Part shown: positions 1 through 48,787 of the stretch, piece by piece
How positions within the stretch are numbered: the stretch's first letter is position 1
Layout: each line of letters starts with the position of its first letter
Origin: Triatoma infestans
Lineage: Eukaryota; Arthropoda; Insecta; Hemiptera; Reduviidae
Direction of reading: 5' to 3'
Assembly: GCA_011037195.1 (NCBI GenBank)
Contig: JAAEAF010000624.1
Location: forward strand, 1 to 64,000
Length of the DNA stretch: 64,000 nt
Notes under the pieces: generated by a model
What the model saw: only the letters and a program-made list of their open reading frames with translations
Told to the model about the DNA's origin: nothing
The model's database searches: none
Translations under genes and position numbers: made by a program

Positions 1-2285
1 TTCCTAGCGCCGTCGAACTTTTCTACGCTCCCTACTCACAGTCATCCTATCAATTAAAAGGGCTGAGACCAAATAACAAAATAAGCTACTTTTTTTTCAA
101 GAAAAAAGCAAGGCCTACAAGAAAATAAAAAACTTTCCTTCGAAATCCGCGTATCTTGGTATGAAACTTGACCGATCGCCTAAATAGTGAGTATACTAGA
201 AAGAGCAATGATATCATGATGATAAAAATGTAAATGAAATTTATTTGGAAATAAAATCCTAAATGTTGTAAAATACCCAATATACTTTAAAATACACGCC
301 GCTAAAGTACGAATAGTAAAAACTAAAGACTTCTGTGTAGTTGGAAAAAGAAGAACCAATACCTCTAGCTACAGACTGATTCAAGATGCTTTAAATTATC
401 GTTTTTACTTCCTCATAATCGATGTTAAAAGTTTTTGTGAGAACACAAGTTTCAAGCTGTCGGAATTCTAAAAAAAAATTATTTCATCAAATGGTATATT
501 TATTATATAATATGTGCGTGTGTGTGTGTGTGTGTTGCTGAATGTCAAACACACATTGTATCACATTACAACATCACAACACTTATAGTTGAAACAATGG
601 TTTTTCTTCTTGAAAAATTTACATATGTAAGGTGTTCGGGGGGGGTTGAGTTTAAGAATGATATCCGGCTTTTTCCCTATAAAGCGCTATAATAAAAAAT
701 ATAATTCGATTTTAACTAATTAACAAAAATTGGGACATTAAATATGATTAAAAAAATTGCCAAATTTGCAGAAAATAAGTTGACTTAAAAATATGCTGAC
801 GGTGTGGGGTTTCTCCATCGTCTGGTAAAAGTAGAAAGATTTACTAGAAATTCCGACATTTCTAAACATTTGCTAATGAAGTCTATGTGAGGATTATTTT
901 ACAAGTAAGACTGTTACATTATTTTACAAGTTATTATATACCCTGTTTAAGAGCGTGAATATTTCACATCAAATTTTATAATACACTCGGAAATATTAAT
1001 TATTAATAATATTTATAATAATTATCCATTTTTATTTAACTAAAAAAATTGAATATGCTAATATATATATATGTTAATCATTTTAAAATATTAGTTTGGA
1101 CCAAGAAATGTATAGGAAAACTAATCCGATTAGGATTAAAAATATATAATTTTTCGATAACAAAATTTTGTTACTATTCCTTTATAAATTTCAATTTAAA
1201 ATGAGAGATCAGCATACTATGTGGACAAAGTAATAAACTATGAGTAAGAAAACATTATAATGATATAGCAAATTTGATATAATAAAATATTTAACTGTTT
1301 TAGTAAGCATTTATATTAAAGTGTATAATTTAATTTAACTGAGAGCTGTAATATTACCTGTATAATAGAGTAACAGTTGTGAACATGATGCAGTTTATTT
1401 TTCAACACCAATTTTAACTGGATATGATTTAAAATTAAAAAAAAAAAAAAATTATACACATTATAACGTCAGCACAGAATACTTTTCTACTTCCATTATT
1501 AAAATATATATTTATGAATGTAGTTAAGTTTATTTAACAAATAAAATGTTGTCTACAACACAAAATTTCTGGCACAGTTTTACACAAATATGACGTTAAA
1601 AGCTACCTCTAAAAGTGTGCCGCAAATAACCCCATGTACCCGCCCGCACATTTTTTTACACCTCCTCCTGCTCCATGCCCCCCCGCAGGCTCCACATCCA
1701 CTGCCTACTTACTTTAAAAGTACTGTGTATGTATATAGGAGGTGTATGTCACGTGCTCAATGTGTCGCACATTAAACGCAAGAAAAAAATCTATAATGTT
1801 TTAGAAATTAAAGAAACAAAAATTCTCTAATGCTGTTTTGATGTCCATTGTATTAAATGCATTTAATTAAATTAGAAAAAAAAAAAATAGATATTACTAA
1901 ATAAGATCTAAGTTTAAATTAATAAGAACAGAGGTTCTTCTATAATTAAAATGACAAAGAAATGTAAATCCAAGAGTATATACCTGTTTAAGAATTGACT
2001 ATTGTTTCAGTGTACAACATAATCTTTATAAATCAATCAAGGCGTAAGAAATATGCACTTTAGAAGAACAGCGTTCAGTGATATGATTTTTGAGGGGTAA
2101 TACCATCTTATCTTATTCCCGAATGCTTAAGCATGTGAGTTGTATGAATGGTATTTCTACTTCCACTAATGGAGAAGCTTGATCAATTCAAAACTGATGG
2201 AACAAGTACGTATGTCTGATTTGAAACGGTGTGATGACTAATTATTATGATTTTCTTTGAGAACATTGTTAAAATATTTTTTTTT
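1..2285. other. AT-rich sequence, no gene seen
   Basis: I see no supported coding region, only short unrelated open frames. It contains a TG microsatellite (about 509-533), a G-run near 639-646 and several A-runs. The stretch 630-850 faintly resembles a decayed reverse-strand R1k module, but the match is too weak to call. Confidence 0.5.
509..533. repeat. (TG)n microsatellite
   Basis: A TG dinucleotide run interrupted by one C. It is not inside a recognisable R1k copy, unlike many TG/CA runs in this window. Confidence 0.9.
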
Positions 2286-2290
2286 ACACT

Positions 2291-2700
2291 GGTTACCACA
2301 GTTCAGTACTCCATGCACTTCGCCAGAACAGTACACAATACTACATACACTTCATAATTTCTACAACTATCCTACATAATTCTACACTTACTCCCGTAAT
2401 TCTATTCTTTACAGACAAGGATACAAACACAGTACACAAACTAGGGTCTCCGCCCCTAGTTAACTGGCCTAAGCCAAAGGAGAAAGAAGGGATTAGCTCA
2501 GTGGTAGCGCGCTGCACTAGCAACGTGGAGTCCTGGGTTCGAATGCAGCATGCTGCCCTTAGATTTTCTCTTCCTAAGAACCTCTACAACTCACTGTCCC
2601 GTGATGGGCAGTGTTGTCTTCGAGGCCGGCAGAGCACTGAGAAGGCTCCGAGGGGCACAACAGATCTTTGACATCGCAGTGCAAGTAAGAGAAAGTAATT
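2291..2700 (+). mobile_element. tRNA-derived SINE, copy 1
   Basis: This SINE has an internal tRNA-like promoter at about 2489-2551. The A box reads TTAGCTCAGTGG (2493-2504) and the B box GGTTCGAATGC (2536-2546). The tRNA part resembles tRNA-Ala, with AGC in the anticodon-loop position. It is preceded by a leader beginning GGTTACCACAGTTCAGTACT and followed by a body containing CCTCTACAACTCACTGTCCC and GAGGCCGGCAGAGCACTGAG. The same leader and body recur at 9160-9629 and, inverted, at 31262-31494; the body also recurs, inverted, at 41535-41732. The 3' end runs into AGTAAGAGAAAGTAAT, which resembles the end of R1k. I infer a non-autonomous element transcribed by RNA polymerase III and moved by a LINE; no clear target duplication was found. 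Confidence 0.85.
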
Positions 2701-3180
2701 AGGCTAGGAAGTCCTGCTTATTTTGCTTGGTTCCCCGCAAGCAGCCATTACTAGTGTCAAGCTTCATAGCAACGAAAACTAAGAGTACAACTAAATTTGC
2801 AAAAAAAGCTCAAAACATCACGACTCAAGAATATTTTATGCCGACACACATACAAAAAAACAATATGGTGTGAAGCAGACTAGTTTCTTTTCAAGTTATT
2901 ATAACCAATTTTTCTTTAAACTTGGCAGTTTTCATTCAACATTTAATTAAATTTGTATTACATGAAAATATAGTTGTGGTTGTGATTATACTTGACATGG
3001 TTGTGACCACCTATAGCAGCGCCCTCCTCTATCTCGTCCCGTAGCAAAACTTGTAATAAGAATTTAAATTGAATGTTTCTAGAACCTCATAAAATCAATT
3101 TTCTCTTGAAATTATTTTAAATAAATGTAATAGGTAACAAAGAATATCTCTGCAGTAAGTATTACAAGTTTCAAGTAAAT
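2701..3180. other. AT-rich spacer, no gene seen
   Basis: No coding or repeat signal that I can support between the SINE and the fold-back element. Confidence 0.4.
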
Positions 3181-3192
3181 CTTTGGAACCAT

Positions 3193-3662
3193 AGATGTTG
3201 TGGGTTCCGCAGAGCTGGAAAGCATCAGAGACATTTTCCGTGGTAATCGATCGTTTTGTGGTTATCGATCAGTTTCGGGCATTCACCCATCTTCAGGATG
3301 CGTCTGTCAGACAGTGTGATAACACAGACTTGCACAGAGCAAATTCAGTTTATACACTTTAGTTTTCAGTTTTCTTTTTATATTTTCTTTTTATTTATTT
3401 TATATATTTTATTATTTTATATTTTATTTTTTATATTTTATATATTTTCAGTTTATTTCTATAGTTTTCATTTTATACACTTTATAAGTTTTATTATAAA
3501 TTGCCAAGTTTATACACATTTTAGACTGTATAAACTGAATTTGCTCTGTGCAAGTCTGTGTTATCACACTGTCTGACAAACGCATCCTAAAGATGGGTGA
3601 ACCCCCGAGACCGGTCGATGACCACAAAATGAAGCAGGCTACCATGGAAAATGTCTCTGATG
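3193..3662. mobile_element. Fold-back element FB1 with 12-bp target duplication
   Basis: Two inverted arms of about 130 bp (about 3220-3355 and 3528-3662) flank a T-rich spacer. The left arm carries an extra 30-40 bp (ATGTTGTGGGTTCCGCAGAG and onward) with no mirror on the right. The 12-mer CTTTGGAACCAT stands on both sides (3181-3192 and 3663-3674) and reads as a target-site duplication. The arms contain a degenerate hammerhead-like core. Related copies lie at 42362-42632, 46727-46937 and 47620-47900. A duplication this long with asymmetric ends suggests retrotransposition rather than a cut-and-paste MITE. Confidence 0.8.
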
Positions 3663-3699
3663 CTTTGGAACCATTTCTGGGATAATTCTAAGAAAAAAA

Positions 3700-3960
3700 A
3701 TCAGAAACCCCTATTTCTTTTTTTCCAAACGGGAATTTTAGCCATGCTTTGAATGTACGTAAATATTACACATTTGGTAGAACCCAACATTATGCTGAAG
3801 TGGAATTTTACAGCCAGAATAATTTTCCCCGATAAAATTGTTAAGGAGCCATTTCTAAGAAAAATCGAGCAAAATTAAAGAAAAAAAAATTTCAAAAAGT
3901 TGCACTTGTTAATGAATTTTGGACCGAAACTTTCGTGTTCGGATTTGATGGAAGTTTTTA
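3700..3960 (+). repeat. R1k fragment, strongly diverged
   Basis: It keeps the module order of R1k: a CCAAACGGGAATTTTAGCCAT segment, a GAGCCATTTCTAAGAAAA segment and a GCACTTGTTAATGAATTTTG segment. No ends are visible and the core ACTTCCGG is lost. It is probably an old copy. Confidence 0.4.
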
Positions 3961-4658
3961 GAATAATTTCATTAAACGTAATTTATTAATAACTTAATTA
4001 TCTAGTCCATTATTTGAGCTTATCCTATTAATCATTAAAATTAGTTTAATTTATTTATAAAATAAACCTGTATTTCGTATGCTTCTTACAGCAATAGCAT
4101 TTTTAAAACTTTTCAAGTTTATTTTAAAATATTTATAAACAGATGTAGAACGTAAATACAGTAGCTGAATGATAGAAAAAGGGTGTAGTAGTTCTGCAAC
4201 ATTTGGCAAGTATTACTACCAAAGTTATGTCCGGTCAGATTAAGTGTTAATAAACAAGATGGCGGCGAGAAGATGTGGCGTCAATATGAAACTGGTTTGT
4301 TTATTGTCTAAGGTCTGTTTTACATTCTTATCTAATATATAAGTTTCTGAAAAAAAAAATAAATAAATAAATAAATTATAATTGACAAATTTGTATAAAC
4401 TTTGTTTATTCAAATTTTCCTTAATTTTATAATTTGTGGAAATCAAGGAAACCGTGTAATATATATAAATTACCACTTTAGGGAAAGAGACTAACGTCGT
4501 CAGAAGTTCTCCAGACAATTCTCAAAAATCTATCATACCGGGACAAATAATAATGACGGATCTACATTAAGTGTATAAACATTTGGTTAACCTGATTTTC
4601 TTCAAACTTGTAAGTTGCAATACATTTCATTATTCACAGTATAACCCCCCTCCCTACT
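3961..4658. other. AT-rich spacer with one short CpG-containing open frame
   Basis: Mostly AT-rich. At 4258 a short plus-strand frame begins ATGGCGGCGAGAAG and runs 27 codons to a stop, with AAG followed by GTCTGT inside it. The local CG content stands out against its surroundings, but there is no further support for an exon. Confidence 0.25.
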
Positions 4659-4677
4659 ACTTTCAATGAAAATTATT

Positions 4678-5452
4678 ACTTTCAATTTTAAGTAATTATT
4701 ACTTTTAATTTAAGAGCTCAAAAAGAGAAAGATTGGTAATTAACACCTCCAAAACTAAATGTATGACAGTGTCTAGGAGTGAAGAACAAGTGCAGATAGA
4801 AATAGACGGAAAACGGATAGAACAAGTGTCTGTGTTTAAATATCTGGGCGTGATGCTAAGTAAGAGCGGCAAACTCAAAAATGAAATCAATACAAGAGTA
4901 GACGCCGCAGGAAGACTATTCTACGCCATAAACAGAAATTTTCTCAGTAAAAAGGAAGTAACAAAGGACACAAAAATGGCAGTCTTCCGTTCGACCTTCG
5001 TTCCAACGCTGACATATGGAAGTGAATCATGGGGCTCTAAGAGAAGCGGAACGTAGCCAACTCCAAGCCGCGGAAATGAGGTACTTAAGAAAAGTGGCAG
5101 GAAGAACCAGAAGAGACAGAATCCGCAACACCACCATTAGAACCATACTTAAAAGTGAACCAGTATCTCAAGTTATTGAGAGAGGTCAGCTACGATGGTT
5201 TGGACATGTGTGTAGGATGCGTGACGAGAGGTATCCGAAGAAAGCATGCGAAACGCGAATGACTGGTAGAAGGCCCCTTGGAAGAAAGAGAATCACCTGG
5301 GAGAACAACCTCCGAGAGGTCATAACAAAAAGAGGGGTCAGATGGGAAGAGGCCAAAAACTTAGCCAGAGATAGGGAAAGATGGAGCTCCTTCTGCAAAC
5401 CTCGACACCCTAGGGTATGAAGAGGTCTCCGACTAAGTAAAGTAAGTAAATT
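4678..5452 (+). pseudogene. 5'-truncated non-LTR retrotransposon, RT C-terminal part
   Basis: The C-terminal end of a LINE reverse transcriptase, read in two frames. Frame one (about 4712-5056) has NTSKTKCMTVSR, then FKYLGVMLSKSGKLKNEIN and LTYGSESW. The next frame (about 5030-5420) has LQAAEMRYLRKVAGR, then QLRWFGHVCRMRDERYPKKA and a terminal WSSFCKPRHPRV. These are the usual C-terminal motifs of LINE polymerases: the K-x-K-x-M block, YLG, EMRxLR and LRWFGH. A frameshift near 5030 breaks the protein, and everything upstream of the palm C-terminus (endonuclease, YADD) is missing, as expected for 5' truncation. The tail is AGTAAAGTAAGTAAA, a microsatellite-like 3' end. The 19-mer ACTTTCAATGAAAATTATT at 4659-4677 and 5453-5471 is a clear target duplication. 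The clade is not assigned. Confidence 0.9.
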
Positions 5453-13541: not shown

Positions 13542-14408
13542 TACGAGGGTCGCTGTAGCTCAAAAACGATTTATTTAATCAATACAAAACTTTGACTACT
13601 TTTCAACATAGTCCCCAGCAACATTCATACACTTGTCCCAACGTTCTTCTAATTTGTGTATGCCTCTGGCATAAAATTCTTTGGGTTGATCTCGAAGCCA
13701 CTTTTGCACCTGATTTTTTAACTTCTTCATTGGATTGAAAATGTTTCCCACATGGAGCCACTTTAATGGGTTCAAACAAATGGAAGTCTGATGAACGAGG
13801 TCGGGGTAGTAGGGGGGATGTGGAAGGATCTTCCACCCCACTTTCTTTGTGGCGTCCGTAAGTTGTCTTGGAACCCCATCTCTCACAAGATTTCTTGTAC
13901 TGAAGGTTATTCTGAATAATGTTATGGACAGTTCCAACACTCGCGTGCATTTCTTCAGCATCAGTTCTACAGTACGCTTGTTCTCCTGATTTAACGCGTA
14001 AATGCGAGATTCGAGGGAGGAAGTTGCAACTTCAACTGGTCGTCCACTTCGTTGCTCGTCATAGACACTTACAAGGCCACTTTTAAACTGTTCTACCCAT
14101 TTGTAAACGATTGAACGGTTCAAACAATTACACCCTACACTTTCAACAATCTTTCGTGGATTTCACTACCTTTGATACCCTCTGCATCTAAAAACTAATC
14201 AGTGAGCGTTGTTCTTCTAGGGGTGCAATGCTCGAACGGACTCGCCATTGTTAACTGAGTATATTTGAGGTTATGCTTACCAAATACTCTCGAACAGCTG
14301 ATGAGAAACTAAGTACAAGGATGCCAACTTGACGCACTGAAACGATTGTACTGATTAAACAAACCGTTTCTGAGCTACTGCGATTTGCCTCGCTCAGCAA
14401 CCCTCGTA
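13542..14408 (-). mobile_element. mariner element, internally deleted, TA target duplication
   Basis: The element proper is 13544-14406, flanked by TA on both sides. The inverted ends are CGAGGGTCGCTGTAGCTC on the left and, complemented, CGAGGGTTGCTGAGCGAG on the right; a second shared block is TAGCTCAAAAACG / TAGCTCAGAAACG. The length of about 863 bp is well short of a full mariner (about 1.3 kb), so internal sequence is missing. It lies inside the 3' part of the Tc1-like element. Confidence 0.9.
13596..14255 (-). pseudogene. mariner transposase, internally deleted
   Basis: The minus-strand N-terminus reads LDAEGIKGSEIHERLLKV, interrupted by stops, then NRSIVYKWVEQFKSG and DEQRSGRPVEVATS, the mariner helix-turn-helix and linker. 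The next readable part is already C-terminal: GWKILPHPPYYPDL, with SSDFHLFEPIKVAPCGKHF in the adjacent frame, then LEERWDKCMNVAGDYVEK at the end. The catalytic middle, including HDN, is missing. A frameshift inside the PYYPDL block splits the C-terminus. It is inactive. Confidence 0.9.
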
Positions 14409-25055: not shown

Positions 25056-25870
25056 AATAAACATTAAGAATGCAATATATAGTGAAATGTTAGCGCTCTT
25101 AATTTTAAATAAAGGAGTTTTTGTTAAATATAAAATATAAATATTATGAACGAATACAAAATTTTGGTTATATGGAACAATGAATAATTGAGGTTTATTT
25201 TCTTTGAAATCATTCTTCTTCATTTTGTGCTCCTCGATCGGTTTTGGATGTTCATCTATCTTCCAGAATGTCCTAAATAAACAGATAATATCATATAATG
25301 ACTTGAATTGGAGACTTTTATCCTTGTGATATCAATCTATTTTGTGGTAACCAAAAAATAAAGTAGAGGCTGGCTATCACGGAAAAAATCTTTGATGTTT
25401 TCCTACAGGGCAGAACAATTATCACCCTTACTAAATGAAGAAAAAAAAAATGAATTCAAATAATGTATCACTAAGGTAGATTATCTGGTCTTGAAAGCAA
25501 TATAAATAAATGCTTATTAATATTAAATTAATTTAAAAAAAAAAAATTATTTATAATTCAAAAACGAAACAAACACACACACACGCGCACAAGAAGAGAA
25601 CCGAATGGTTGATGTAGGCGTGGCGACTAAATGTCTCAAATGTAGAGGAAGTTATCAGAGCGAAGAAAAAGAGAATATATATGGAGACAAGTAATAATGT
25701 TGATGACGGTGTATGGCTATGGCAAGGCACTATATATTCCAATAGTAATGTGACACACCACACCACACACAACAGTTCTTTATATATGTGATAGTAATAG
25801 TTGTGGATGATACACGGGGTAGTGGACAAGCACTAGTGAGGAGGCAGACATATGAAAAGAGAGTGTGTGT
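25056..25870. other. AT-rich spacer, no gene seen
   Basis: No supported gene or repeat family. Confidence 0.4.
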
Positions 25871-41732: not shown

Positions 41733-42348
41733 CCTAATATTTTTTATTATTAAAATATATTTTGTATTTTAAAATGTATTTTTATATTAAAATATATAAT
41801 TATATTATTATTTTATATTATTATATCGTATTAATATATTTTTTTTTTACTATCCTATTTTTTTTTCTTCATCAATTTGTGTTTTCTTTAAAGAACTAAG
41901 GGGACAGAAGTAAATTTTCGTCACCTTTCTTTGTGTTTTTTTTTTTTTTTTAAATGTGACTCGCGTTAGTCACGCATAAACTAGGCCTCACAAAAATGTA
42001 AACTATCTTCATCCACATTTTGCTAACCTAATTTTCTACGACAGAAAATAGATCAAAACTGTAAATATCTCCTTCAATACAGAGATATAGGTTAAAAAAA
42101 CCTACGTACAATCATTCGTACAAATTTCTCTTACTGCCATAATTAAAATTGTAATTAATTAATAAATTTTCATTAATTTTGAAATGTTTCCAAAAGTTTT
42201 GTTGCCTTCAATATTACAGTAAATACGAATGTATTCATAAAATAATCGTATATTTTACTTGTTGTTCTTAGTACGTACACACATGAGGTATATGATAGTG
42301 ATTTCTTTTTGGAACAACAGCCAGTGCTTCAACAAAACTTCAATAAAC
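41733..42348. other. AT-rich spacer, no gene seen
   Basis: Long T/A-rich runs. No supported gene. Confidence 0.4.
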
Positions 42349-42419
42349 ACTTGAAATTTATGTTGTGTTGGTTGGTTACGCAGAGACATTTTCCGTTGTA
42401 CCCTGCTTCATTTTGTGGT

Positions 42420-42458
42420 CATCGACCGGTTTCGGGCGTTCGCCCATCTTCAGGATGC
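42420..42458 (-). ncRNA. Hammerhead-ribozyme-like motif, left arm of FB2
   Basis: The minus strand reads CATC, CTGAAGA, T, GGGC-GAAC-GCCC, GAAA, CCGG, TC, GATG. This has the order helix I strand, CUGANGA core, helix II hairpin, GAAA, a very short palindromic helix III (ACCGGU), cleavage triplet GUC and helix I strand. The extra T before helix II is not canonical. Activity is unknown. Confidence 0.45.
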
Positions 42459-42552
42459 GTTTGTAGACAGTGTGATAATAAATTCAGTTTATACACTCTG
42501 TATAAACTGAATTTGCTCTGTACAAGTCTGTGTTATCAACTGTCAGACAAAC

Positions 42553-42591
42553 GCATCCTGAAGATTGGCGAACGCCCGAAACCGGTCGATG
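42553..42591 (+). ncRNA. Hammerhead-ribozyme-like motif, right arm of FB2
   Basis: Helix I strand GCATC, core CTGAAGA (42558-42564), helix II region to 42577, GAAACCGGTC (42578-42587) and helix I partner GATG (42588-42591). One base of helix II is changed (TTGGC instead of TGGGC). Confidence 0.4.
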
Positions 42592-42699
42592 ACCACAAAA
42601 TGAAGCAGGCTATCACGGAAAATGTCTCTGATACTTGAAATTTATTTTCAGAGATTTTCGGCTTCCGAAAAAAATATCCTATTTGGTAGGTTAGGATTT

Positions 42700-43095
42700 T
42701 TTGCTAAATGGGTGGTGGGTTAGAAAGTAAAAGCAGGTAGTTAGCATTCCTGGTTTAAGAAAATTGTTACGAGCCTTTTCCAGAAAATTTTAAAAATAAT
42801 AGATATTATTAGGGGTAAAATTATACTTCCGTTTAGGCAATTTTTTTTTTTTTCAAACTCTGGGTTCTAAAAAATCATTATATATAGTCCTTATTATATT
42901 ACATATATGGCTAGAAGAACTCTATATATTGTACTTAAATGGCACATTAAAGAGGAATAATCTTAACTTTATTTTACCATAATCCCCCAAAAATTTGTTG
43001 AAATAATAAAGAACATTAAGAAAATTCTTGGCTCAGTTTTGAAATAATTACGAAAAACTGGAAGAAATAAGTTTCAGTAAAGTCGCATTACTAAA
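42700..43095 (+). repeat. R1k diverged fragment
   Basis: It shows TTACGAGCCTTTTCCAGAAA, ATTATACTTCCGTTTAGGCA and CTCAGTTTTGAAATAATTAC in module order. Its right edge abuts the reverse copy at 43107. Confidence 0.4.
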
Positions 43096-43106
43096 TATGG
43101 ATTATC

Positions 43107-44037
43107 ATTTTCTCTTACTCCTAGTAAGAGGAAGTATTATAATCGTGCCAAATTTTCAATATCGAGTTTTCACCGGAAATATCCGTTTTGAGGTTCCCTG
43201 AGTCCAAAAAAGTGGTTTTTAGCAAAAGTGTGTATGTATGTATGTATGTGAACAGCATAACTCAAAAACGAGAAACCGTAGGAAGTTGAAACTTGATATT
43301 CCGTTTAGGTATCACTATGGGATCTGACAGTAGGTCAGCGGTCAAAATTCCGTAACCGGAAGAACCACTTTCCTGAATGGTTTTTTTCATTGTCTTGCGA
43401 TGTTCTCAAAAACGGCTTCAACAAATTTTATTCAAACGTGGTATATCAACTTACACATGCCAAAATCTACCAACTTTTAATTAAAATATTTCTCTGGAAA
43501 AATTCATTTAAAGGCAGTTTTTGGGGAAGTGGTGGGGTGAGATTTCAGTTTATTATACAATTGTGCCAATGTATTGTTAAAATTCCGAGTTTGAATAATA
43601 ATATCGGATGACCGGAAGTGCGTTTACTTTACCACTTTACTAAGTGATTTCATTTACGCGATTTAAAAAAAAAAAAATGGCGACGATTTTGTTGAAACAT
43701 CTTGTATAAACTAAACAAACAAAGATGTACAATTTCTCTGTGTAAATTCATTTATGGGCAGTTTTAGGGAAGGGGTGGGGTTATGTTTTTCTCTAAAGTG
43801 CTATCATAGTTGATTATACAATTCTATACATCCAAACAAAATTAATCAGAAATAAATAGATGGCCAAATTTCCGTTTTCCAAGGAAATTAGTAAACCGGA
43901 AGTGCGCTTTTACTGAACAATATTTTTTTCAGTTTTCGACGAATTTCATTAAATTAGCTGCACAAACTATAAAATTTGTCAATTATAATTTTGTGAAGTG
44001 GAGTAAGAGAATGTTGTGTGAGTGTTTCACACCAGAT
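43107..44037 (-). repeat. R1k full copy, reverse
   Basis: Terminal palindrome TCTCTTACTCCTAGTAAGAG, TCGAGTTTTCACCGG, a GTATGTATGTATGTATG microsatellite, module ends AACCGGAAGAACCAC, GACCGGAAGTGCG and AACCGGAAGTGCG, and head end TTTCACACCAGAT. Confidence 0.95.
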
Positions 44038-45012
44038 TTTTTTCTACCTTATTTTCATACACTTTTTTCGAAGAAATTGTTTGAAAGAAAAACAGTATCA
44101 CCTACGAATTCTTGTGCATGGAATCTTCCTTTTGGGTAGTACTTGTGAAAGGAGATCATCAAACATTCCTAAAGGATGTTAATTCATTATCATTATACAA
44201 ATATGGAATGCATTTTTACTTTATTGTTTTATAACGAAAAAAGCAAGGGCTACCAAAAAAAAACATGAGTTTAAATTCAAATAAACCAAAATCCACTAGG
44301 ACTAATCAAAAGAAACACAGTTAGATGACCTAAATATTTAAGGAAAATAGTAAACATTCAAATCAACAAACCGTAATTTTTAAACAATTAAATACTAGCA
44401 TTATTATCTTGGGTAAATTATCAGTAAAAAGATGAGGAAAAAAAAACTCCCGCTATAGAAGATAAAAAGTCCCATTACAAGTTTATTGAAGCGTGTAGGT
44501 TGCGAATAATATAACTTGGCAATCTAGAGCTTGCTCCTTTTTCTTTTCTTTTCTTATTTCTTTTATAAAAGTTTGGCTTCATTTAGTTGTTAAAGTTTAA
44601 CAGCAGTATATTCAGACAAAAGTAAACAGCCTTGCCTAAAAGTAGTTGGCTACTCTACCTTTATAGTTTAGTCTAGTATTTTCTCTCATATTGTCTTAAA
44701 CAGTCAGTAGGAAGTTTATAACAAGTAATGTTGTTTAACAACAATAACACAACAACAAATTGAACTGTGTTATAAAGATAGCATGTCTATGTACAAACCA
44801 GACAAACAACCACAAAGAAATAAACTATCGATCTATAAATTGTAATTAGAAAAGACCCAATGTTTTGTTTCACACTTAGTAACATACAAGACGTTATAGA
44901 TTAATTAACTCTATAGCATTGAGTACTGAAAATAAAATGTTTTAAACAGTTTTTGTCTGATATATCCCGAACTATAAAAATCTATAAAAAAAAAAAAAAA
45001 AAAAAAAAAAAT
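44038..45012. other. AT-rich spacer, no gene seen
   Basis: No supported gene. A 30-base A-run (about 44986-45011) leads into the next R1k head. Confidence 0.4.
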
Positions 45013-46010
45013 ATCTGGTGTGAAACACTCACACAACTTTCTCTTCCTCCTGTTCGCAAAATGATAATTGACAAATTTTATAGTTTGTGTACCAAATTTA
45101 ATGACATACATCGAAAACTGAAAAAACCGTTCAGTTAAAGCGCACTTCCGGTTTACTAATATTCTTGAAACTTGGAATTTCAGCCATCCATTTATTTCTA
45201 ACTAATTATGTTGGATGATAGAATTGTATAATCAACTAGGATAGCACTTTAGATGAAAATCTAACCCTACCCCTCCCCTAAAAGTGCCCTTAAAAGAATT
45301 TTCCCAGAGAAATGTTTTAGATAAAAGTTGTAGATCTTTGTTCCCAGTGAAATGTTTTACTAAAAGTTGTAGATCTTTGTATGCGTAGTTTATATAAAAA
45401 GTTTCAAGAAAATCATCAGAGCCATTTTTGAGAAAATCGCAATAAAGTAAAAGAAAAACATTAAGTAAAGTGGTAAAGTAAACGCACTTCCGGTTATGCG
45501 ATTTATTTCAACCTTGGAATTTCAACAATATATTTAATTCTAATTAACATTATTTAGATGGGAGAAAAGTCCAATAAGCTGAAATAGCACTTTAGATGAA
45601 AACCTAACCCTACCCCTCCCCCAAAAGTGCCCGTAAATGAATTTTCCCAGAGAAATGTCTCAACTAAAAGTTGTAGCTCCTTGTACATGCAGTTGATGTA
45701 ACAAGTTTAAAGAAAATCGTCGGAGCCATTTTTTGAGGAAAACAGAAAAAAGTAAAAAAATCAACTAGTAAAGTGGTACTTCCGGTTGAGAATTTTGACA
45801 GGTAACGCATAGTCAGATCCCATGGTGATACCTAAACGGAATATCAAGTTTCAGCTAAAAAAACAATAAAGTGGTACTTCCGGTTGTAGAATTTTGACAG
45901 ATAACGTACTGTCAGATCCCATGGTGATACCTAAACGGAATATTAAGTTTGAACTTTCTACGGTTTTTCGTTTTTTAGTTATGCTGTTGTACTAGGAGTA
46001 AGAGAAAGTA
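45013..46010 (+). repeat. R1k full-length copy with internal duplications and tail deletion
   Basis: Head ATCTGGTGTGAAACACTC. CCCAGAGAAATGTTTT... is partly repeated (45302-45340 and 45341-45378). The module 3 start is duplicated (45771-45857 and 45863-45955). The tail jumps from ATGCTGTT to GTACTAGGAGTAAGAGAAAG, losing the microsatellite, the palindrome and one hairpin arm. Confidence 0.95.
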
Positions 46011-46726
46011 AAAAAAAAAATTATGTATGTAATGTTACAATATCTGCATCATGTTGATAAAGAGTTTCAGATTTTGCACTATGCTAGCGAGTTAAGCTGC
46101 CACTGAGATCCCCAATCTTCAACCTCTATTAAAAAGATAAAGGCAATTAAAAAAATGAACTATTACTCGAAAATAGAACCTAGACTACAACAATAGTCTA
46201 GACAGGCGATTATTATTTGTTTAGCCTCTTACGGACATGCTTACTGAATCTTTTAACAGAAAAAATGGAGTAAACAAGGTTATATATAAAGGCCTTGAAT
46301 ATGGAGAATTTAATTACACAAAAAAATCTGCACACTATAACATTGTAGATACAATTTACAGGAAATAGAGCAAATCAAATTTTCAAGAATGATAGAAATT
46401 TCTTGTGGTGAATTTGTATCGTAAATAGTTCTGACCTTAGCATAAACATTCATTAATTATCGACTGTAATCAGAAGAAAATATCGAGAGGTAACTAGGAA
46501 TTTCCCTCTATGATTTTTAGAAGCATAGAAAGAATAGCAGTTGTGTGGCTTTCCCAAAGTTCATCATGATGATTACAATAATGGTATGAAGTATTTGAAA
46601 TAATAGCGTTAAAGGACTTCAGTTTTATTCCACATTGTAACACCTGGACTCATCACAAAAGGAACCAAGGAAGAGCAAAAAATAGTTTGCGTTCTCTAGT
46701 TGATATTGGTTAAGCAAAAAAAAATC
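46011..46726. other. AT-rich spacer, no gene seen
   Basis: Nothing supported. Confidence 0.4.
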
Positions 46727-46937
46727 ATCAGAGACATTTTCCGTGGTAGCCTGCTTCATTTTGTGGTCATCAACCGGTTTCGGGCGTTCGCCCATCTTCA
46801 GGATGAGTTTGTCAAACAGTGTGATAACACAGACTTGCACAGAGCAAATTCCGTTTATACACTCAGTGCAAGTTTGTGTTATTACACTGAGTGACAAACG
46901 CATCCTGAAGCTGGGCGGACGCCCGAAACCGGTCGAT
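46727..46937. mobile_element. Fold-back element FB3, right end lost
   Basis: Left arm ATCAGAGACATTTTCCGTGG to about 46853 and right arm from about 46862 to GGTCGAT at 46936, where it is cut and joined to an internal point of an R1k copy. The right-arm hammerhead-like core has CTGAAGC instead of CTGAAGA. The left-arm core (minus strand, 46768-46805) is complete, with GGTT before GATG. Confidence 0.85.
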
Positions 46938-47319
46938 CCCGGAAAAGTTGTAGCTCTTTGTATTATGTGTAGTTGATGTAACAAGTTTAAAGAAAATCGT
47001 AGGAGCCATTATTGAGAAAGTCGCAAAAAAGTAATAAAAAAAACACTAGTAAAGTGGTACTTCCGGTTGAGAAATTTTGACAGGTAACGTACTGTCGGAT
47101 CCCATGGTGATACCTAAACGGAATGTCAAGTGTCAACCTTCTACGGTTTTTCGTTTTTGAGCTATGCTATTCACATACTACACACACTCACACATTTGCT
47201 AGAAAGCAAGCAATTTTTTGGACTCAGGGGACCTCAAAATGGATAAATCCGGTGAAAACTCGATATCTAAAATTTGACACGATTACAATACTTCCTCTCA
47301 CTAGGAGTAAGAGAAAGTA
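46938..47319 (+). repeat. R1k copy, forward, 3' part only
   Basis: Starts inside module 2 (AAAAGTTGTAGCTCTTTG) fused to FB3. Module 3 (ACTTCCGGTTGAGAAATT) and the tail are intact, with terminal hairpin CTTCCTCTCACTAGGAGTAA. Confidence 0.95.
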
Positions 47320-47619
47320 ATAATATATTACTAGTTTATTACTTTAAATATTATCCGTCATCACTCCATAAATTCATTCATAAACATTCAGATATTTTAT
47401 CATTTCTGATTTATTTAATTTTTTCTTTCCAAAAAAGTTTTATTCTGAATACTTGTAAAACCGGACATACCATAGCTATTTTAATGAAACAAGTTCTCGA
47501 CTTTTCCCAGTATTAAGATACATAATGCAAATATTTTGTTTTTAGCCATCTTGTCTCATTTTAAATTTTAGATTTAAAAGTTGACCTTTTCTAAGCTTCA
47601 TAACAAATACGCATAAAAT
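47320..47619 (+). repeat. Arm A of an inverted segment pair
   Basis: This segment matches the complement of 51240-51032 followed by 50057-49960. Shared pieces are CATCACTCCATAAATT, TCAGATATTTTAT, TTTATTCTGAA, TAATGAAACAAGT, TTTTTAGCCATCTTGTC and TTAAAAGTTGACC. The other arm carries an R1k insertion that this one lacks. Confidence 0.9.
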
Positions 47620-47900
47620 ATCACGATACATTTTCCGTGGTAGCCTGCTTCATTTTGTGATCATCGACCGGTTTCGGGCGTTCGCCCATCTTCAGGATGC
47701 GTTTATGTCAGACAGTGTGATAACACAGATAAAGAGTGAATAAACTGATTTTGCTCTATGCGAATCTGTATTATCACACTAATTTATCAAGACATCCTGA
47801 TGATGTGGGGCAATCGCCCGAAACCGGTCGATGACCACAAAAAGAAGCAGGCAATGTCTCTGATGCTTTCCAGCTCTGCGGAACCATCCACCACAACAAC
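47620..47900. mobile_element. Fold-back element FB4, reverse orientation
   Basis: The extra unpaired end lies on the right here (CTTTCCAGCTCTGCGGAACC to CCACAACAAC), so this copy is inverted relative to FB1 and FB2. The left-arm core (minus, 47662-47700) is complete. The right-arm core (plus, 47793-47833) reads CTGATGA, the canonical hammerhead heptamer, but has a longer insertion (TGTG) before helix II. No clear target duplication. Confidence 0.85.
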
Positions 47901-48787
47901 TAAAAAAAAAAATCATTTGGCCAGGCATAGATAGTGTAAGCATGTTTGTGCCCACACAGAGTTGCCAATCCTTTACTACTGGCCTTATAGTTTGTTAGTT
48001 TGATGGCAAAACCCAAAGCAGTTATCATTTCCTTCTGTGCCTAAACTAAGAATTATATTCAAAACTAAATTTATTAGCGCATTAAATAGTAGGTTTTTGT
48101 TAAAAAAGATAATAACGAGCAAAAAAATTTCTAATGATGAAATGAAAAAAATATATATATTCAATATAACAGTTAAACTGTATTTTAAAAAAGAAACAGG
48201 TAGGTACCAATGACCCTGTAAAATTCAGACAGCCTTGGAAGGTAGGATGTTCGGGGAAATTCCCGATGAGTCAGAATAAATATATATATATATATATAAG
48301 AAAAGAAAGAGAGGTTCTGAAAGAGGTGTAGAAAGAAGCAAAATGATGAAGTGGAGAGGTCGTTAGGACAACATTCCAACGAAGGCCAGTCCAACTACTC
48401 CAAACCTTACATGGTCTTGTAGTCCGCCCAACTGTATATATATAAATTATATATGTATACAGATTATTAAAAATATATTTTCAAAATTATCACAACATTT
48501 ATTAATAAAAATTATATACTTTTATTTGATTAAAACTAAATATTACAGATTTTAAATATTATTATTAAAGCGATGAATAGTTCACCAAGCTTAAGCAATT
48601 GATTGATTATAAGAAATGAGAAATTTTTTGATAAAGGGAATTTTTAAAAAACTAGTCTATTATGAAAATTAGATTAATACCAACCGAACTTCTAATAAAC
48701 CTTGACATTTGTTATGTTTTATCAATACTATCACTTTTTCCGCAATGAGAAAGAGCGTCACTTCTATCAGTTAGAGATCAGAAAATG
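47901..48787. other. AT-rich spacer, no gene seen
   Basis: It contains a (TA)n run at about 48279-48297. No supported gene. Confidence 0.4.

Follow-up and report, generated by a model that had tools for sequence, protein, structure and literature searches.

Fold-back elements of Triatoma infestans as probable ORF-less head-to-head pLTR pairs of Penelope-like origin with outward hammerhead-like motifs

The fold-back elements described here are very probably ORF-less pairs of head-to-head pLTRs of Penelope-like element (PLE) origin, which carry an outward-pointing hammerhead-like motif in each arm and would have been spread in trans by the reverse transcriptase (RT) and endonuclease of a PLE. 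Their structure is that of a Penelope-like element, namely head-to-head pLTRs, an optional tail and a short target-site duplication (TSD), and a hammerhead-like motif of the same layout is present in a complete PLE resident in the genome (locus L172); both observations support the Penelope derivation that had been proposed by an earlier, sequence-only reading of this DNA. Since the fold-backs carry no ORF with a telomerase-type RT or GIY-YIG domain, we name them PLE-derived elements rather than PLEs.

The window, i.e. the whole stretch of 64,000 nt that was analyzed, contains four clear fold-backs (A, C, D, and E) and a decayed fifth (B), with hammerhead-like motifs pointing outward in both arms. 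A search with the 30-nt motif, allowing up to 3 mismatches, gave 5 matches in the window and 0 in 100 shuffles. The features are as follows, with strands given for the motifs.

3181 to 3192: left target-site duplication of copy A, 12-nt repeat CTTTGGAACCAT
3193 to 3662: fold-back copy A; left arm with AC-rich tail, arms separated by an AT-rich filler of about 160 nt
3267 to 3296, minus strand: left-arm motif of copy A; helix III palindrome lost
3587 to 3616, plus strand: right-arm motif of copy A; core broken (CTGA to CTAA, GAAA to GAGA)
3663 to 3674: right target-site duplication of copy A, 12-nt repeat
25205 to 25410: fold-back copy B; strongly decayed, ends approximate, absent from the list of the sequence-only reading
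42349 to 42361: left target-site duplication of copy C, 13-nt direct repeat ACTTGAAATTTAT
42362 to 42632: fold-back copy C; two head-to-head arms, the left with AC-rich tail, the other ending at CTCTGAT
42424 to 42453, minus strand: left-arm hammerhead-like motif of copy C; core intact, 17.7 bits with covariance model R1
42558 to 42587, plus strand: right-arm hammerhead-like motif of copy C; core intact, one helix II pair gone, missed by R1
42633 to 42645: right target-site duplication of copy C, second unit of the 13-nt repeat ACTTGAAATTTAT
46728 to 46937: fold-back copy D; right arm shortened just past its motif, ends approximate
46772 to 46801, minus strand: left-arm motif of copy D; H17 is T, 18.3 bits with R1
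46905 to 46934, plus strand: right-arm motif of copy D; A9 lost (A9 to C)
47621 to 47900: fold-back copy E; right arm with AC-rich tail, ends approximate
47666 to 47695, minus strand: left-arm motif of copy E; core intact, 20.0 bits with R1
47797 to 47829, plus strand: right-arm motif of copy E; 3-nt insertion before helix II, 11.0 bits with R1 (E 1.9)

The sequence-only reading had reported four fold-backs with an outward motif in each arm. All four are present, but the motif is damaged in four of their eight arms (A right, D right, A left, and E right).

The arms of copy C comprise 84 nt with 95% complementarity, and its ends, exact at 42362 and 42632, are set by the flanking 13-nt direct repeat; a shared word of this length or longer was found in 10 of 2000 random window pairs. 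For the 12-nt repeat of copy A, an equal or longer shared word occurred in 11 of 2000 such pairs. The words shared between the ends of copies B and D, of only 7 and 8 nt, respectively (662 and 256 of 2000 at random), are unconvincing as duplications, and no shared word of at least 7 nt was found at the two ends of copy E. The filler of copy A (window 3362-3521), about 160 nt of AT-rich, repetitive sequence, lies exactly at the arm junction. Elsewhere in the window, a Pfam search of 10 frames detected a fragment of a LINE-type reverse transcriptase (PF00078; 62559-62987, plus strand) and a fragment of a mariner-type transposase (PF01359; 7874-8170, minus strand), and no GIY-YIG domain; one frame (13599-14162, minus strand) has a sub-threshold HTH domain as its sole Pfam match.

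Read outward, an arm consists of a TATA-like 5' part followed by CATC, CTGAAGA, T, GGGC-GAAC-GCCC, GAAA, CCGG, TC, and GATG. From GATG it extends for about 40 nt to CTCTGAT, and one arm only adds an AC-rich tail of about 36 nt ending CCACCACAACAAC. The complete element is about 250-330 bp in size and has no ORF. In 37 of 39 further genome copies, each examined with 200-nt flanks, one arm extends no further than about arm position 138 (range 135-151), whereas the tail of the other runs to positions 166-174. The two exceptions, L093 (153 and 146) and L102 (141 and 160), have ends too altered to orient and were left out of the duplication count. Words of at least 7 nt are shared between the ends of 18 of the 37 oriented copies, about half, and in 12 of these 18 the word is exactly 12 nt long; when flanks were swapped between copies, at least 7 nt were shared in 7 of 500 cases, the longest word being 8 nt. 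The other 19 copies have no exact duplication of at least 7 nt within the offsets allowed, and because the offsets were limited, a few real duplications may be missed in this count. Two pairs among the fetched copies are duplicates (L096/L097 and L109/L111), none of them within the 18 with shared ends. The centre junctions vary among copies by short gains or losses.

Long, nearly perfect inverted repeats and short, ORF-less copies by the thousands would also be compatible with a transposase-driven fold-back DNA transposon or MITE, in whose inverted repeats a hammerhead-like palindrome is present by chance. However, the terminal inverted repeats of such an element are equivalent, whereas here the ends are unequal, the AC-rich tail being confined to one arm in all but the two exceptions given above. 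The same head-to-head layout is, moreover, found in L172, a PLE with RT and GIY-YIG domains, and in the motif pairs of other hammerhead-like families. We consider movement by a transposase unlikely, and PLE-derived pLTR pairs remain the preferred reading.

In the genome containing the window (941 Mb in 13,959 contigs), the motif pattern CCTGAWGATG...CGAAACNGNTC has 19,620 matches (9,837 and 9,783), against 0 for the reversed pattern used as a control, and a second pattern, written for related motifs with a terminal ACGTC, has 4,064 (control, 0); 100 places of each pattern were examined. A genome search with the fold-back gave 4,987 first-look candidates, of which 40 were scored, yielding 80 matches, with one on each strand. 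Among the first 30 places matched by the motif pattern, which are unselected for layout, there are 28 distinct elements: 16 are head-to-head, 10 are single arms, 2 are in direct order (L170, and L168 with an additional inverted tail fragment), and none is tail-to-tail. In the two lists of 100 places each, the motif neighbours within 500 bp are head-to-head in 16 cases out of 16; up to 1 kb there are 22 head-to-head and 1 direct, and up to 5 kb 27 head-to-head, 3 tail-to-tail, and 2 direct.

This bias bears on the label "retrozyme-like" given to the elements by the sequence-only reading. A metazoan retrozyme would be a small non-autonomous retroelement whose hammerheads process its RNA into circles, and the type-I-like motif, the small repeats, and the many copies agree with such an element. 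As described in the accessible part of PMC7229834, metazoan retrozymes are indeed small repeats with type-I hammerheads, but they are arranged as direct tandem repeats, whereas the window family is head-to-head or in single arms and its helix III has no loop. With 16 of 28 distinct elements head-to-head versus 2 direct, and all 16 of the closest pairs head-to-head, the label is unsupported and a retrozyme nature is highly improbable.

A hammerhead has the core CUGANGA ... GAAA ... UH with helices I, II, and III, and is cleaved after H17. In the window motif, helix I is CATC/GATG, helix II is GGGC/GCCC, and helix III is ACCGGT without a loop; the core agrees with the consensus in C-left, C-right (where one helix II pair is gone), D-left, and E-left. 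It departs from the canonical form by an extra base between A9 and helix II, the unpaired T that the sequence-only reading had marked as non-canonical. The extra base is real, but it is a regular trait of all six families rather than an oddity: a structural scan of 112 own-genome loci, in which core, pairing, and a palindromic helix III were required and 0 or 1 extra base was allowed, gave 13 distinct sequences in six families, and every one of these has exactly one unpaired extra base at this place; it is T in the window's family and A in the other five.

Helices I and II vary among the families but remain complementary, and the core letters are constant. In an alignment of seven motifs covering the six families (two of them from the window's), 97.4% of cells are paired, both sides have changed in 8 of 11 pairs (2 of 500 shuffles reach 8), and the covariation score is 0.84, a value reached by 0 of 500 shuffles and replaced by at most 0.13 once the partners are slid, although the covariation figure is inflated because two families, F5 and F6 (L144 and L161), came from the scan that requires pairing; F1-F3 came from a scan without this demand. 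For the unconstrained pattern with 4,064 matches, helix II has at least 4 pairs in 83 of the 100 places examined and in 21 of 37 distinct inserts, compared with a mean of 12.25 and a maximum of 18 when the halves are swapped. The core and the between-family covariation support the hammerhead-type fold with a loop-less palindromic helix III that had been suggested, and the motif is, as judged from sequence, a putative ribozyme, a hammerhead type of the minimal PLE kind.

Rfam models, the check proposed by the sequence-only reading, reported no hammerhead in the whole window at gathering thresholds, none in 42300-48000 and 47650-47710 with permissive settings, and none up to E 5 in the motif-bearing loci L172, L122, L118, L144, and L161. 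Because the motif of the resident PLE in L172 was missed too, the outcome of this check says little about the window; hammerhead-like motifs of this class, which have one additional base ahead of helix II, go unreported by the Rfam models. The covariance model R1, built from five families with the window's family excluded, ranks E-left, D-left, and C-left first (20.0, 18.3, and 17.7 bits; E 0.0085-0.035), and its next match has 12.2 bits (E 0.98). E-right, with 11.0 bits (E 1.9), is below two unrelated places, and the other four of the 8 arms are unlisted by R1. The model scores sequence as well as structure, since among the 15 of 64 viral-collection loci on which it was run, a locus picked by its core letters has 18.6 bits. 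These viral-collection pattern loci (2 and 62 from the two patterns) were rejected as relatives: helix II has at least 4 pairs in only 10 matches at 9 loci, which is attributable to chance, and the two loci from the first pattern are without an inverted repeat.

In the predicted monomers of C-left and E-left, helices I and II form, but the core CUG pairs with CGG of the palindrome, an arrangement that would not be active, and the predicted fold of C-right is not a hammerhead; the window motif is probably weak as a monomer. In L172 and L122, stems I and II make up the lowest-energy predicted structure, yet one no better than those of shuffles, and of five single-motif folds compared with shuffles, three are no better and two slightly better. 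The full transcript of copy C is predicted to form one hairpin of -184.7 kcal/mol (z -23.8), in which each motif is paired with its complement.

These observations have to be weighed against the possibility that the hammerhead likeness is due to chance, and that GGGC-GAAC-GCCC and ACCGGT act solely as signals for protein binding or for the initiation of reverse transcription. The absence of an Rfam hammerhead match, the extra base before helix II, the weakly constrained core, and the tying up of this core in the predicted monomers of two window arms are all compatible with it. On the other hand, helices I and II change together across families while the core letters stay, and a PLE hammerhead with protein-dependent cleavage has been published, as described in the accessible part of PMC11167929. 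A fortuitous likeness appears improbable, and we retain the reading of the motif as a putative PLE-type hammerhead.

The resident element in L172 is a full PLE with an inverted pLTR at 1155-1309, a direct pLTR at 1319-1752, and a 3' pLTR at 4334-4766 (97.9% identical). Its hammerhead-like motif is located at 1627-1665 in the direct pLTR and, on the other strand, at 1205-1243; a motif scan of L172 found none in the 3' pLTR. The ORF, a frame of 809 aa from 1780 to 4203, starts about 115 nt past the motif, and its product matches RVT_1 just under the cut-off (29.0 bits versus 29.6) and GIY-YIG above it (28.1 versus 22.6). Among 7,995 candidates scored, this protein has 16 relatives of 528-878 aa, with an RT domain in 14 and a GIY-YIG annotation in one; two of the relatives are named, from the beetle Coccinella septempunctata and the ant Vollenhovia emeryi, in keeping with an insect host. 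A search of solved structures with the PLE ORF gave only weak matches (E 0.31 or more).

Most of 30 GIY-YIG loci scanned carry the motif AGGTA-CTGAGGA-A-GATTAT...ATAATC-GAAACGTT-TACCT, and some hold two more motif families; the scan, made without a pairing demand, also gave one unpaired, chance-like match in L137. A Penelope-like RT with the same arms, for which the sequence-only reading had suggested searching the genome, was not found in these 30 of 38 GIY-YIG loci, among which L131 alone contains the window arm, as a separate fold-back more than 1 kb away. The same loci together with the motif loci yielded no autonomous partner. In L170 (225-1576, contig C7), two fold-back-type arms in direct order flank about 1 kb of unrelated, frame-broken sequence, a layout that recalls the capture of host DNA between pLTRs known from Penelope; this interior being frame-broken and unrelated, L170 is not a PLE and was rejected as an autonomous partner.

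Several other inverted arrangements were observed in the course of the analysis. In L113, L114, L118, and L130, the 3' ends of 5'-truncated PLEs lie head-to-head (450-670 nt, 94-97%) around the endonuclease region. A second, unrelated fold-back in L122 (540-870, contig C3852) is a 335-nt palindrome, 96% identical, with its own motif GTTC-CTGAAGA-A-GACAAAC..GTTTGTC-GAAACGTC-GAAC near each end. Another GIY-YIG family, in L175 (1734-4264, contig C6569), is arranged as a head-to-head inverted repeat about 1.1 kb long (92%), inside which the motif scan finds no motif.

According to the accessible part of PMC3846280, Penelope has an adjacent inverted pLTR, optionally with a 31-bp tail on one inverted pLTR, TSDs of 8-10 bp, and a pLTR reaching the first ORF codons; its head-to-head junctions contain palindromes, for which the authors invoke self-priming. 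The window fold-backs resemble in particular Pen2a of Adineta vaga (the same source) in the head-to-head pLTR pair, the one-sided tail (31 bp in Pen2a versus about 36 nt here), the short TSD, and the palindromic junctions. They differ from Pen2a in having no ORF between or beside the arms and in their amplification to many thousands of copies.

A second comparison is with PAc, a Poseidon element of Anolis carolinensis, whose description in the accessible part of PMC11167929 places the ORF start at stem II, the ATG being preceded by C3 and G8, and the initiation of reverse transcription internally, in an AC-rich stem loop, with both target strands cut and extended. The extra T of the window family likewise creates an ATG at the start of stem II, in a frame open to the tail, and the predicted cut would lie 24 nt downstream, compared with 26 bp in PAc. 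Unlike the window fold-backs, PAc is an autonomous element; a protein had to be added for its cleavage. The codon positions of the fold-back frame are without a coding signature, and the L172 ORF begins about 115 nt after the motif rather than within it; we therefore take the motif ATG as suggestive only. Further literature, likewise accessible in part, is PMC6155905 and PMC6431247.

The very short, palindromic helix III is a likeness to the minimal PLE hammerheads, and the same helix had led the sequence-only reading to expect action as dimers. Lunse et al. reportedly found that minimal PLE hammerheads cleave as dimers. The dimer mechanism requires tandem copies (PMC6466107, accessible part), whereas the two motifs of a fold-back lie on opposite strands, so that no transcript of one element holds two motifs in tandem. 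Dimeric action by the fold-backs themselves accordingly finds no support.

The origin of the two arms was analyzed in 56 two-armed copies, comprising 37 of the 39 fetched copies (two duplicates were left out), 15 of the 16 head-to-head loci (without L158), and four copies of the window (without B). A copy with a common variant tends to have it in both arms, as do 14 of 19 carriers at position 40, 16 of 19 at position 54, 12 of 18 at position 119, and 5 of 6 at position 107. For variants present in at least 4 copies, 69 calls are concordant, versus a mean of 21.5 and a maximum of 38 in 1000 permutations. Many rarer variants are confined to one arm, as expected of later mutation. The divergence between left and right arms is 6.1% within a copy and 8.3% between copies, and no variant is restricted to one side in more than 5 of the 56 copies. 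Because the common variants are concordant between arms, both arms come from one source sequence and not from a mixed RNA pool. The concordance fits either snap-back self-priming at or near insertion or the use of two RNAs from one locus, and arm-to-arm gene conversion could mimic it.

We propose that reverse transcription, by the enzyme of a PLE acting in trans, would start downstream of the motif, at the AC-rich tail, and copy back through the motif to the 5' end of the pLTR. The new strand would then prime itself, or the second target strand would be extended on RNA from the same source, and the second, inverted arm would arise without a tail; integration would duplicate about 12 bp of the target. 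Alternatively, a finished fold-back could move as a unit, with a hairpin RNA through both arms being reverse transcribed and the second arm not made anew. Such movement would account for the uniform layout, in which 37 of 39 copies have one end near position 138 and the other at the tail. However, an independent lineage of such units should gather shared differences between left and right arms, whereas the commonest variants in the 56 copies are mostly in both arms, and the centre junctions differ among copies. Movement of finished units is possible but rather doubtful, and formation of the second arm from the source of the first is the reading followed below.

In the fold-backs, the ribozyme motif is probably a passenger, handed down from the parent pLTR, in which it may have a role. 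This interpretation is based on the damage to four of eight motifs in the window, on the predicted full-element hairpin, which buries the motifs, and on the lack of a tandem pair in any one transcript; in addition, the core is hardly better kept than the rest of the arm (97.5% conservation at core positions versus 95.5% at the remaining ones).

What is new is a high-copy fold-back without an ORF whose two arms derive from one template; its parts and mechanism are of already known kinds. A literature search, mostly without subscription papers, did not turn up any account of hammerhead-bearing, ORF-less pLTR pairs in head-to-head order, and the matches listed in a search with the arm sequence were all off-topic. 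In the accessible part of PMC7761336, both the activity of the minimal motifs and their role are described as "still a mystery"; how PLEs make inverted pLTRs and what their hammerheads serve are left open in the corresponding parts of PMC3846280 and PMC7761336.

We tentatively suggest, as a conjecture less probable than the PLE origin itself, that these fold-backs may represent a non-autonomous, high-copy retroelement that remakes its inverted repeat at each insertion from a single pLTR by PLE snap-back and is thus born as a near-perfect hairpin. If this is true, such hairpins could be a source of small RNAs that silence the parent PLE, and transcripts read out of one arm or the other could be cleaved by the hammerhead of that arm. 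Thousands of short ORF-less copies, many of them clean head-to-head pairs with target duplications and subfamily markers, constitute a natural experiment on the formation of inverted pLTRs, in which snap-back and two-template models can be told apart by the concordance of the arms and by the centre junctions.
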